A DNA stretch of 39,292 bases from Sebaldella sp. S0638 (GTDB taxonomy: Bacteria > Fusobacteriota > Fusobacteriia > Fusobacteriales > Leptotrichiaceae): positions 1-39,292 of the forward strand of contig NZ_JAMZGM010000032.1 in assembly GCF_024158605.1 (NCBI RefSeq), read 5' to 3'. Below the pieces are notes generated by a model, which had not been told where the DNA came from, searched no databases, and saw nothing but the letters and a program-made list of their open reading frames with translations. A program made the translations under genes and the position numbers. This document shows positions 8,313 to 12,535 of the stretch, one piece after another; position 1 is the stretch's first letter; each line of letters opens with the position of its first letter.

Positions 8313-8354
8313 TTTTATAAAATAAAACGGAGGGTATGAAAACAGCTTATAAGA

Positions 8355-8382
8355 TTGAAAGTCGAAATAAATAAAATATAAT
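8355..8382 (+). promoter_or_regulatory. Promoter of sRNA module copy 1
   Basis: TTGAAA (8355-8360), 16 bases, TATAAT (8377-8382). The TATAAT and its flanks are conserved in all three copies (9536-9541 and 11225-11230); the -35 is weaker in copies 2 and 3 (GTAAAA, TTAAAA). Confidence 0.6.
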
Positions 8383-8387
8383 GCATA

Positions 8388-8502
8388 AAAAAAGATTAGG
8401 CTAAGAGAAAAGCCCTATAATTATATCAAGCTAATAAGAAGAATAATTTTTTCATATACCCCCTTAGTTGTCTCGAAATACCCGTTTTGAGACAACTTTT
8501 TT
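8388..8502 (+). ncRNA. Sibling sRNA module, copy 1
   Basis: Predicted small RNA of about 115 nt. The A-run 8388-8393 plus ATTA (8395-8398) can pair with TAAT plus TTTTT (8444-8452), closing a domain that contains a TAGGCT/AGCCCTA hairpin and a segment (8415-8440) almost invariant between copies. CATATACCCCC (8453-8463) is left unpaired before the terminator AGTTGTCTCGAAA / TTTTGAGACAACT (8466-8478, 8485-8497) with loop TACCCG and a T-run. There is no ORF of note. The next gene is on the opposite strand, so this is not a leader of a downstream gene. I know no Rfam family that matches. Confidence 0.6.
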
Positions 8503-8540
8503 ATTTGATAGGTTATTTGCTTATCTGATAATTACAATAA

Positions 8541-8580
8541 AAAAATCCACCTTTCTGCAATAAATGAAGGGTGGATTTTT
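8541..8580. terminator. Bidirectional terminator
   Basis: AAAAATCCACCTTTC (8541-8555) pairs with GAAGGGTGGATTTTT (8566-8580) with one wobble. It terminates the minus-strand gene at 8593 and insulates it from the sRNA module. Confidence 0.85.
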
Positions 8581-8592
8581 CCATATTCTAAA

Positions 8593-9240
8593 TCAAATTC
8601 TTTTTTTTGAGAGTAATTTATTAATAAAATTCTTTAATTCCTTAAAAGCACTTCTTGTATTTATTTCATCAAGTGTTTCTATAAGAATTTTGATATGTTC
8701 GTCGTCAAGACTTTCTTTTTTGTCAGCTATAAAAGTAGCTCTGCTTTTTATAATAAATGTAAGTATCTCATCCCGCGACATGCTATTTGCAACCATATCA
8801 GCAACAGTTTTACTTTTGGAAGCAAATTTTATAAAATCTTTGTTCATAAGTGCATAATTTAATTTACCTTTTTCATCACTGTATCTTTCTATGATGGCCT
8901 GATACTCATCGCTGTTTACCATATCAATTATTTCCTGCTCAGGTTCTTCCACTTTTTCAGTATATTTAGAAACATCAATTTTTATATTTTGGCGTCCTGA
9001 ATAAGGCATTCCCAGTGTTAGTTCCATTGCTTCCTCAAACGCTTCAATAGGAAACAAAGTTTCATCAATTTTTCCATAAGGGACAGGTTCTCCTGTACTT
9101 TTGTCCAAGGTCGCTGCTGCTGTTGCTTCAGTATCTAAACGAAGTATTTTTATACCTGCACCTCCGGACGTGAGCTTTTGCTTATAGGCAATTGCCGGAA
9201 TTATACTTAATTCCACGGATTTTGTTCTTACAATAGTCAT
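8593..9240 (-). CDS. Unrecognised acidic cytoplasmic protein
   Basis: 215 residues with no signal peptide or membrane segment. The N-terminal third is beta-rich and glycine/alanine-containing (LTSGGAGIKILRLDTEATAA, GEPVPYGKIDETLFP); the C-terminal two thirds are acidic helices ending in a basic tail (NFINKLLSKKRI). I do not recognise the family. The start is ATG 9240, with AGGGAGG 8 bases upstream; a longer frame from 9273 contains that ribosome binding site and is rejected. It is flanked on both sides by copies of the sRNA module, so it may be part of a duplicated or mobile cassette; that is speculative. Confidence 0.75.
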   Translation of the reverse strand: MTIVRTKSVELSIIPAIAYKQKLTSGGAGIKILRLDTEATAAATLDKSTGEPVPYGKIDETLFPIEAFEEAMELTLGMPYSGRQNIKIDVSKYTEKVEEPEQEIIDMVNSDEYQAIIERYSDEKGKLNYALMNKDFIKFASKSKTVADMVANSMSRDEILTFIIKSRATFIADKKESLDDEHIKILIETLDEINTRSAFKELKNFINKLLSKKRI

Positions 9241-9535
9241 AATATCGACCTCCCTGATTTTTTTACTGTACATATAAATATGATACCAGAAGAAAAATAG
9301 TTTGTATAGTTATAATAAATTTTTATATAATATTATCTGAATAAATATATTTGTTTATTGTTAAATTATTGAGGTGCGGCACATATGATTATTTCAAATA
9401 CTAATTTATTTCTTTAATAAATAAAAATGAAAAATTTTATATTTGTGCCTGTTATGAGTAAAACATATTTATTTTCATGTGAAATTTTAATAAAAAGATA
9501 GATTCTTATAAATGTAAAAGCTGAAATAAATAAAA

Positions 9536-9662
9536 TATAATACATAAAAAAAGATTATACTAAGAGAAAAGCCCTATAATTATATCAAGCTAATAAGAAG
9601 AATAATTTTTTCATATACCCCTTGAGTTGTCTCGAAATACCCGTTTTGAGACAACTTTTTTA
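9536..9662 (+). ncRNA. Sibling sRNA module, copy 2 (with its -10)
   Basis: Nearly identical to copy 1. TATAAT is at 9536-9541 and the start is expected near 9547. The invariant body segment is 9574-9599, CATATACCCC is 9612-9621, and the terminator is AGTTGTCTCGAAA / TTTTGAGACAACT (9625-9637, 9644-9656) with loop TACCCG and a T-run. GG of the first hairpin in copy 1 is TA here, and the alternative pairing GATTATA / TATAATT appears instead. Upstream similarity extends back to about 9501. The stretch 9274-9500 holds nothing else I can support. Confidence 0.6.
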
Positions 9663-9759
9663 TTGCCGGTATTTCTTATGAATGAATGGTTTATTGACTA
9701 ACGGGTAAAAATCAGTATAATTATATGGTGTAAATAAAATAACAGAGAGGAGAAGGTTA

Positions 9760-10224
9760 ATGGAGGAAAAGAAACTTGTACAAAAAGTAAAAGAAGATGC
9801 GGAAAACTTGTTTCGAGAAGGGAAATTTTATTGTTCAGAAGCAATAGTTTCTTCTATAAGAACAAATCTTGATCCTGATATGCCTGAAAGCATGATTGCC
9901 GCAGCATCAGGTTTTCCTATAGGGATAGGAAAATCAAAATGTGTATGCGGTGCTGTTTCCGGCGGGATTATCAGTCTGGGATATTTTTTTGGAAGAACAA
10001 AGGGGGCGGACTCCAAAGTGGATAGAACACTTGCTTTGGCTAATGAATTACAGGAAAGCTTTCGAAGCAACCATAAAGTTTTATGCTGCAAAATACTTAC
10101 TAAAGGAATGGATATGAGTTCGGGGGAACACAAGAATCAATGTGTATCATTCACTGGGGAGATAGCAGAAAAAGCAGCGGAAATAATTTTGAGAGAGCTG
10201 AATCACAGTGAGAGCCATGAATAA
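9760..10224 (+). CDS. C_GCAxxG_C_C family redox protein
   Basis: A 154-residue cysteine-rich protein of the C_GCAxxG_C_C family, putative redox-active proteins of anaerobes. Characteristic cysteines are Cys25 (FYCSEAI), Cys61 and Cys63 in CVCGAVSGG, a Cys pair in VLCCKIL (about 109-110) and one in NQCVSF (about 128). There is no signal peptide, so it is cytoplasmic. The function is unproven; binding of a metal or disulfide exchange is inferred. AGAGAGGAGAAGG precedes the ATG. The last codons overlap the start of the TDT transporter gene, so the two are almost certainly translated from one mRNA. Confidence 0.88.
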   Translation: MEEKKLVQKVKEDAENLFREGKFYCSEAIVSSIRTNLDPDMPESMIAAASGFPIGIGKSKCVCGAVSGGIISLGYFFGRTKGADSKVDRTLALANELQESFRSNHKVLCCKILTKGMDMSSGEHKNQCVSFTGEIAEKAAEIILRELNHSESHE

Positions 10225-11173
10225 AATTATAAAGAACATACCTCTGCCAATAGCGGGCCTGATTCTTTCAATGGCAGTAACGGGAAATATACTTGAAGAT
10301 ATACATGTTAATATAAGATATGCGTATGGGGTTACAGCAGCAGTTTTAATGCTGTTTCTTATTTTGAAAATATTGTTTTACAGGGAGACTGTAGTAAAAG
10401 AACTGGAGAATCCTGTGGTTTTAACAGTGTTTCCTACATTTGATATGGGATTAATGGTACTTGCCACTTATATAAGCAGATTTCACGCGACAGCTGCTTT
10501 TCACATATGGGTTTTTGCTGTTTTTATTCATTTTTGCTGGATTATATATGTTACTAAAAAATTATTTTCGAATTTTGATATAAATAAAATTTTTCCGAGT
10601 ATTTTTGTAACATATGTAGGAATAGTAACAGCCAGTGTTACAGCACCTGTATTCAAAATGCAGACTCTCGGGCAGTATATTTTTTACTTCGGATTTATAT
10701 CTTATTTATTGCTGACAATTATAGTTTTTTTCAGAATGGTTAAAATAAAAGGAATTCCAGAACCGGCTTTTCCCGCAGGAGCTATTTTGGCGGCACCGGC
10801 TAGCCTTTGTCTTGCAGGATATATAAGTTCCTTTAAGGATAAAAATGAAGTGATTTTATATTTTTTACTGATATTATCGTTATTTATGACATTTTTTGTA
10901 TTATTTTTCTTTTATAAATTTCATACAAAAAAGTTTTATCCCAGTTTTTCGGCTTTTACCTTTCCATTTGTGATAAGCACTCTTGCATTGAAAAGTTATA
11001 TTAAATATCTGAATACATATCAGGGAACAGGTAATATGATTTTTTCAAAAGAACTGCTCACAGGTGTGTATTATTTTGAACTGATATTTTCGGTTGCAGC
11101 TGTTTTTTATGTATTTATAAGATATGTGATGTTTTTTAAAGCTAAATTTGCAGCAGTGAAGGAAAGTAATTGA
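10217..11173 (+). CDS. TDT/SLAC1-family (TehA-like) membrane transporter
   Basis: Integral membrane protein of about 318 residues with roughly ten hydrophobic helices. The opening PLPIAGLILSMAVTGN, the conserved FHIWVF region and the AGAILAAPASLCLAGYIS segment are typical of tellurite-resistance/dicarboxylate transporter (TehA/SLAC1) proteins, which conduct small anions across the inner membrane. The substrate is not predictable here. The start is ATG 10217, overlapping the upstream stop by 8 bases; an in-frame GTG at 10208 is an alternative. It is translationally coupled to the C_GCAxxG_C_C gene. Confidence 0.88.
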   Translation: MNKIIKNIPLPIAGLILSMAVTGNILEDIHVNIRYAYGVTAAVLMLFLILKILFYRETVVKELENPVVLTVFPTFDMGLMVLATYISRFHATAAFHIWVFAVFIHFCWIIYVTKKLFSNFDINKIFPSIFVTYVGIVTASVTAPVFKMQTLGQYIFYFGFISYLLLTIIVFFRMVKIKGIPEPAFPAGAILAAPASLCLAGYISSFKDKNEVILYFLLILSLFMTFFVLFFFYKFHTKKFYPSFSAFTFPFVISTLALKSYIKYLNTYQGTGNMIFSKELLTGVYYFELIFSVAAVFYVFIRYVMFFKAKFAAVKESN

Positions 11174-11224
11174 TTTTACAGGTAAATTTGATTCTTATAA
11201 ATTTAAAAGCAGAAATAAATAAAA

Positions 11225-11357
11225 TATAATGTATAAAAAAAGAGTAAGCTAAGAAAAAAATTCTATAATTATATCAAGCTAATAAGAATAATATTTTTTT
11301 CATATACCCCCAAAGCAGGCCGCTTGTTTCAAAAGAACGAGCGGCCTGCAATTTTTA
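11225..11357 (+). ncRNA. Sibling sRNA module, copy 3 with a different terminator (with its -10)
   Basis: TATAAT is at 11225-11230 and the start is expected near 11236. The invariant body segment 11263-11287 and CATATACCCC (11301-11310) match copies 1 and 2 at the same spacing, but the terminator is unrelated: GCAGGCCGCTTGTT (11315-11328) pairs with AACGAGCGGCCTGC (11336-11349), followed by TTTTT. The body differs at several positions (AGGCTAAGAG becomes AAGCTAAGAA). Upstream similarity to copy 2 begins at about 11190. The hairpin is strikingly GC-rich for this genome. Confidence 0.6.
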
Positions 11358-11382
11358 TGTAAAAAAATAATTGATAAAAACC

Positions 11383-12430
<1,048 letters not shown>

Positions 12431-12483
12431 AATCAACACTGGAGATTATATAAAATTTGGATATAAATCCTAATATAAAATAA

Positions 12484-12525
12484 TTGACCTGTTTATTCTC
12501 TGAAACAATGAGAAAAACAGGTCAA
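12484..12525. terminator. Strong bidirectional terminator
   Basis: TTGACCTGTTTATTCTC (12484-12500) pairs with GAGAAAAACAGGTCAA (12510-12525) almost perfectly. T-runs on both sides end the aldo/keto reductase and anSME genes. Confidence 0.88.
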
Positions 12526-12535
12526 TTTTATATTT

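Follow-up and report, generated by a model that had tools for sequence, protein, structure and literature searches.

Three related modules in a Sebaldella contig

The DNA analysed here (the window) is a complete contig of 39,292 nucleotides (nt) from Sebaldella sp. S0638, whose genome measures 4.27 Mb, and it carries three modules which look like genes of short small RNAs (sRNAs) of about 75-81 nt. The modules are copies of a 160-nt direct repeat (8346-8505, 9505-9664 and 11194-11353), copies 2 and 3 being 93% and 73% identical to copy 1, respectively. A preliminary description of this DNA had already recognised them as three siblings, which the repeats, their common core and the terminator of each copy bear out; the invariant core is 26 nt long (8415-8440, 9574-9599 and 11263-11288) rather than 24-25 bases, and the motif CATATACCCC (8453, 9612 and 11301) lies 76 nt, start to start, from an upstream TATAAT in all three copies and not 80-81 nt as had been given.

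At up to one mismatch CATATACCCC has six matches in the window versus 1.6 expected, a number reached in 1 of 100 shuffles, and the 14-mer TTTTCATATACCCC has six exact occurrences in the own genome, versus none for the reversed pattern; five are followed by a terminator and one lies, by eye, in coding sequence of the opposite strand. Behind each module there is indeed a strong terminator, with z-scores of -6.5, -6.4 and -6.6 for the 78-nt RNAs and none of 200 shuffles equally good. Copy 1 converges with an open reading frame (ORF) of the opposite strand (8593-9273), as had been noticed, and the earlier view that these are sibling sRNA genes and not leaders of downstream genes is supported by the sequence. 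The features predicted in the three copies are:

8357..8405, + strand: operator of copy 1, made up of AAG-type half-sites repeating every 11 bp, placed via the family alignment
8357, 8368, 8379, 8390 and 8401, + strand: copy 1 half-sites GAAAG, TAAAT, TAATG, AAAAG and CTAAG, in this order
8377..8382, + strand: outer TATAAT of copy 1, the promoter of the preliminary description, overlapping the third half-site
8416..8421, + strand: copy 1 inner -10 box TATAAT
8428..8502, + strand: copy 1 predicted sRNA, ~75 nt, its start placed at the C then A behind the -10 box
8447..8463, + strand: copy 1 seed UUUUUUCAUAUACCCCC, complementary to Shine-Dalgarno (SD), AUG and AAA
8466..8503, + strand: copy 1 terminator hairpin and U-run
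9516..9564, + strand: copy 2 operator
9575..9580, + strand: copy 2 inner -10 box
9587..9661, + strand: copy 2 predicted sRNA, ~75 nt
9606..9621, + strand: copy 2 seed UUUUUUCAUAUACCCC
11205..11253, + strand: copy 3 operator
11264..11269, + strand: copy 3 inner -10 box
11276..11356, + strand: copy 3 predicted sRNA, ~81 nt
11294..11311, + strand: copy 3 seed UUUUUUUCAUAUACCCCC
11315..11356, + strand: copy 3 terminator, with a stem sequence unrelated to those of copies 1 and 2

Promoter and operator architecture

Four Sebaldella genomes were compared in all, the own genome (G000) and three further ones (G024, G025 and G026), and 36 distinct members were aligned on the inner TATAAT (8416, 9575 and 11264 in the window), a box that is general in the family. 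Upstream of it a G is found at -11 in 32 members, at -22 in all 36 and at -33 in 34, with a further G at -55 in 15 members (among them 13 of the 16 that form the subfamily of the window copies), and the ten letters directly 5' of the box show no conservation. The distance from one AAG to another is 11 in 63 cases, 22 in 30 and 33 in 20, every other distance between 3 and 39 occurring at most ten times; for the control triplet GAA the maximum is 6, likewise at 11. When the -10 box was located without reference to CTAAG, a spacing of 10 between the two was best or among the best in 32 of 34 members (2 of the 36 were ambiguous). Regulators of the OmpR/PhoB type bind direct repeats with an 11-bp period, the last of which ends about 10 bp before the -10 box, and both the repeat distances of 11, 22 and 33 and the spacing of 10 agree with this layout. 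TTGACA, placed at spacers of 16-18, matches in only 1-4 of its six letters in the 36 members, and judging by this alignment a good -35 box is absent from the family promoter. The sixth and seventh letters after the inner TATAAT are C in 28/36 and A in 35/36 members, hence the predicted starts at 8428, 9587 and 11276, that is, at the A directly 3' of TATAATNNNNNC.

The preliminary description had instead taken an outer TATAAT (8377, 9536 and 11225) as the promoter, with 5' ends at 8388, 9547 and 11236 and transcripts of 110-120 nt whose 5' A-run would pair with and mask the U-run. In copy 1 this box matches TATAAT perfectly and has a TTGAAA at 16 nt, it is ranked first by a simple sigma-70 score in copies 1-3 and in G26a, and the copies resemble one another from about 8346 on, far enough upstream to accommodate such a promoter. 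On the other hand, the outer box is kept in 4/36 members, where it overlaps a half-site, whereas the inner box, the 10-nt spacing and the phased repeats occur throughout the family, and unrelated RNAs and protein genes have this element in front of them too. The outer promoter was therefore dropped once the wider family had been seen, and with it the 5' ends and the length derived from them; the longer transcripts are improbable. Nor did RNAalifold find any consensus pair for the 5' fold on 10 or 12 members, a weak null as the 12-row alignment missed the terminators too. A weaker second start at 8388 would make both promoter assignments true.

The promoter element also stands upstream of protein genes. 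In the own genome these include a gene with an LTXXQ domain (L148, E 5.6e-11), an Hsp20 gene (L146) and, by eye, an LTXXQ-like gene with no Pfam match (L145), and in G024 a second LTXXQ gene (L156, E 8.3e-6) and a GHL10 gene (L157).

Size and distribution of the family

A sequence-only model built from ten members has matches in all four Sebaldella genomes, with clusters of units on contig C44 of the own genome and at 85-96 kb of contig C1 of G026, and none was accepted outside the genus among 96 genomes of Fusobacteriales searched. In the loci examined we count about 24 sRNA-like units in the own genome and about 21 in G026, and Sebaldella is the only genus in which the family was found; the three copies described at first are the number in the window and not that of the family. 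With a promoter weight matrix, chosen loci of the own genome gave 27 sites of at least 13 bits, 24 of them followed by a terminator at about 63-94 nt and three standing before protein genes. A stricter script, applied to these loci together with 300 kb of unselected sequence, found 28 sites, 23 with a terminator and five lacking one, of which three belong to protein genes, one has a weak hairpin and one is a presumed chance match, and in G026 it found 23 sites, 20 with a terminator and three without, one of which has a hairpin by eye. What the sequence itself shows is the family, its promoter architecture, the terminators and the complementarity of the seeds.

Pattern searches gave a similar distribution: an exact triple-repeat pattern has 31 matches in the four Sebaldella genomes and 0 in the remaining 92 genomes of Fusobacteriales, its reversed control five in the 96 genomes and none in Sebaldella, and with one mismatch the four genomes have 22, 23, 8 and 25 matches versus 0, 1, 2 and 2 for the control. 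A two-repeat TAAG pattern occurs in 20 of the 96 genomes, at most twice per genome outside Sebaldella; such a match in G085 was rejected as an sRNA unit, an apparent protein start lying within about 100 nt of it. An extension beyond the genus was likewise rejected. Of the 96 genomes, model R1 matched 55 (E<=0.01), but the best outside Sebaldella, in G066, was partial (E 1.2e-5, model positions 35-79), and the non-Sebaldella matches were taken as AT-rich background, judged without a formal control.

As the preliminary description had supposed, no described RNA family is recognised here: at the gathering score Rfam has no match for the family, and its only match in the window is a tRNA elsewhere. 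Literature searches, for which subscription papers were mostly out of reach, returned nothing joining Sebaldella and sRNA and, by title, neither Sebaldella small RNAs of such a kind nor CiaR-type sRNAs in Fusobacteria, and the papers listed for csRNA, CiaR and TTTAAG made no mention of Fusobacteria.

It is very improbable that the units are repeats multiplied by duplication or recombination, with hardly any regulatory function or none. Such spread would account for the tandem clusters and for the lack, in the syntenic 8-kb stretch of G026, of the genes that lie between the copies, yet the seed and the operator persist where the sequences of spacer and terminator vary, and the promoter element also precedes protein genes. 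The operator, -10 box, RNA part and terminator follow one another in the same order and direction in the listed units, so the random orientation to promoters of a repeat like a miniature inverted-repeat transposable element, named beforehand as what would speak against sRNAs, is not what is found. Support from structural covariation, the other property in question, was not obtained for the 5' part, and a compensated stem change was seen, by eye, in the terminator only (TTGTCTC/GAGACAA in the window, CTGTCTC/GAGACAG in G026).

Predicted RNAs, seeds and targets

In the predicted RNAs a largely single-stranded 5' part is followed by a terminator, and the folds predicted for the three window RNAs all leave the C-run unpaired. 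The seed UUUUUUCAUAUACCCC is complementary to the SD sequence, the AUG and the AAA codons; a C-rich seed suited to SD sequences, as first proposed, is supported by the sequence but is an incomplete account, the start codon and codons 2-3 being covered too. Besides UUUUUUCAUAUACCCC, the class of the window, the family has the seed classes UUUUUCUUCAUAACCCCC, UUUUUUCUUCAUUCUCCCC and UUUUUCUUCAUAAAACUCCUU, among others. In each of the classes named the seed is complementary to an SD-like run, to AUG and Lys codons and to a spacer whose length is particular to the class. Among the units with a terminator, the script found a seed against both SD and AUG in 19 of the 23 in the own genome and in 17 of the 20 in G026.

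Two further units, each present in both genomes (L143 1927-2055 and L154; L144 and L153), have operator and terminator and no visible seed against a start region; they are possibly sRNAs of another kind.

In 225 start regions of the unselected 300 kb, duplexes with the copy-1 RNA had a mean of -10.92 versus -7.55 for ORF interiors and -8.54 for shuffled RNA. The 50 signal-peptide-like starts among them reached -13.20 and the 175 others -10.26, a contrast (p 4.5e-6) which rests on common Met-Lys-Lys starts, the p-value being uncorrected for these. This test replaced a first one on 163 start regions, which was biased, as it included loci fetched by similarity to the sRNA.

Comparison with known systems

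According to PMC3091779, promoters of CiaR, the regulator of the streptococcal csRNAs, can be searched for as a pair of half-sites separated by 5 nt and lying 10 nt from TATAAT, with an essential G; a C is preferred before the start site, csRNAs number 2-6 per genome, and a few lack the conserved nonamer. The Sebaldella promoters resemble CiaR-dependent csRNA promoters in half-sites of 5-6 nt, an 11-bp period, the 10 nt to TATAAT, the G and the C before the start, and the predicted RNAs resemble csRNAs in being intergenic, ending in a terminator, occurring several times per genome and exposing an unpaired stretch against SD and AUG (CAU). Two half-sites 11 bp apart lie 10 nt from TATAAT, and a stretch against SD and AUG precedes the terminator in the 19/23 and 17/20 units given above. 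In contrast to the TTTAAG described there, the Sebaldella half-sites are CTAAG/AAAAG and number three to five, and about 24 units stand in one genome of another phylum. Measured against NTTAAG-N5-TTTAAG, the family has TAAG/AAAG, its G at -22 being invariant, but 34/36 members carry a C at -15, where a T stands in TTTAAG, and the csRNA nonamer [A/C]UCCUAAA[A/C] is found in 0/36.

LhrC1-5 of Listeria, which depend on LisRK, are also multi-copy sRNAs under one envelope-stress two-component system, with C-rich stretches that bind SD sequences (PMC4132741), a control which in Sebaldella would be analogous; unlike the Sebaldella RNAs, LhrC folds into two stem-loops and carries three CU-rich sites. 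The Rfam LhrC model RF00616 scores 22.9 and 23.3 bits, compared with a gathering score of 110. Given the nonamer and these scores, the family was placed in neither group; by analogy, it would work like csRNAs and LhrC. By description, FoxI and FoxJ of Fusobacterium nucleatum are comparable too, being from the same phylum, with a C-stretch seed (linear in FoxI) and envelope targets such as FomA (PMC11005410); they differ in being sigma-E-dependent, and a repeat array is not mentioned in the portion of that account available.

Candidate regulators

The own genome has eight OmpR-type candidates, among which no CiaR orthologue was identified, and a scan of six of them with NCBIfam gave no hit among the listed models above cut-off. 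The regulator may be one of the eight or something else. A two-component system on contig C21 was tried and rejected. Directly behind it lies a TPR/aspartyl-protease gene with a signal-peptide-like start (L163 3100-4669) and a two-repeat site, AAG-N8-AAG-N10-TATAAT, scoring below 9.5 bits, and the system protein (1e-45) and the protease are each found in two of the four Sebaldella genomes.

The phased AAG array could also serve another activator or an alternative sigma factor, or reflect intrinsic DNA curvature, leaving the sRNA part unchanged. Such a role would suit a motif to which no regulator has been linked and the presence of the C21 system in only 2/4 genomes; curvature, on the other hand, would not need the half-site G, yet this is the most conserved letter, TATAAT fits the main sigma factor, and the spacing is the same as that of CiaR sites, so that we regard these possibilities as unlikely.

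Proposed mechanism and its weight

The reading we prefer, to which we give a probability of roughly 0.7, is that the modules encode two-component-controlled sRNAs directed against translation initiation, analogous to csRNAs and LhrC. In the mechanism we infer, which extends to transcription, regulator class, stress signal and repression, a response regulator of the OmpR/PhoB family would bind the AAG half-sites, which are in phase with the helix through their 11-bp period and end 10 nt short of the -10 box, and switch on transcription just downstream of the inner TATAAT. UUUUUUCAUAUACCCC would then pair with start regions such as GGGG-UAU-AUG-AAA-AAA, which would probably block ribosome loading on mRNAs of exported proteins, and the family sRNAs would probably damp the synthesis of envelope proteins. 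The common promoter would drive further sRNAs, with seeds for other SD-AUG spacings, and some protein genes, for example LTXXQ, which gives the set the look of a noncoding branch of an envelope-stress response.

Several observations weigh against this proposal. The 36 aligned members are related and were preselected by a score that included the 10-nt spacing, so the member counts are not independent, and the weight matrix was partly trained on units it later found. At 13 bits it gave one presumed chance match in 300 kb, which makes single sites of 13-16 bits unsafe alone (LTXXQ gene L148, Hsp20 gene L146, unit L144); L146 and L148 score only 14.3 bits each. In the folds of copies 1 and 2, though not in that of copy 3, the U-run and some of the CAU are taken up in a weak hairpin. 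The scripted seed is absent from 4 of the 23 units of the own genome (one with CAA for CAU, one with a longer variant and two without any visible seed), and one locus of G025 (L040, contig C315) has the same seed and a terminator, but its body is unrelated and its promoter is of the consensus form TTGACA-17-TATATT, a possible escape from the regulator. The 225 start regions were chosen for SD, which partly builds in their advantage over interiors. The target pattern exceeds its reversed control modestly (39/19 in the own genome, 22/19, 14/10 and 44/23 in the others), and six of the 39 matches are sRNA genes themselves. Finally, the motif was not found at 9.5 bits or more in the regulator loci searched.

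More tentatively, and at slightly less than even odds, Sebaldella would hold an unusually large set of some two dozen response-regulator-driven sRNAs with one operator and seeds tuned to SD-AUG spacings and Met-Lys-Lys, through which one stress signal acts as a graded brake on much of the exported proteome, with an origin separate from streptococcal csRNAs. The plan of a two-component system with many near-copy anti-SD sRNAs would then be shown in another phylum, with about four times as many units as the upper csRNA count per genome in PMC3091779. As the seed classes of one genome differ in SD-AUG spacing, the reason for which bacteria maintain so many copies could be tested directly on them, and Sebaldella would gain a regulon with a testable operator.

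Genes between the copies

When window 8510-12535 is compared with the corresponding G026 stretch (L102 3736-4322), the ORF at 8593-9273, the C_GCAxxG gene at 9760, the SLAC1 gene at 10208 and the aldo/keto reductase gene at 11405 are absent from the latter, which keeps a 21-codon remnant of the C_GCAxxG gene. It is as if these genes had been deleted by recombination between sRNA repeats. PMC8186281 mentions a four-gene island of S. oralis flanked by duplicated csRNA genes.

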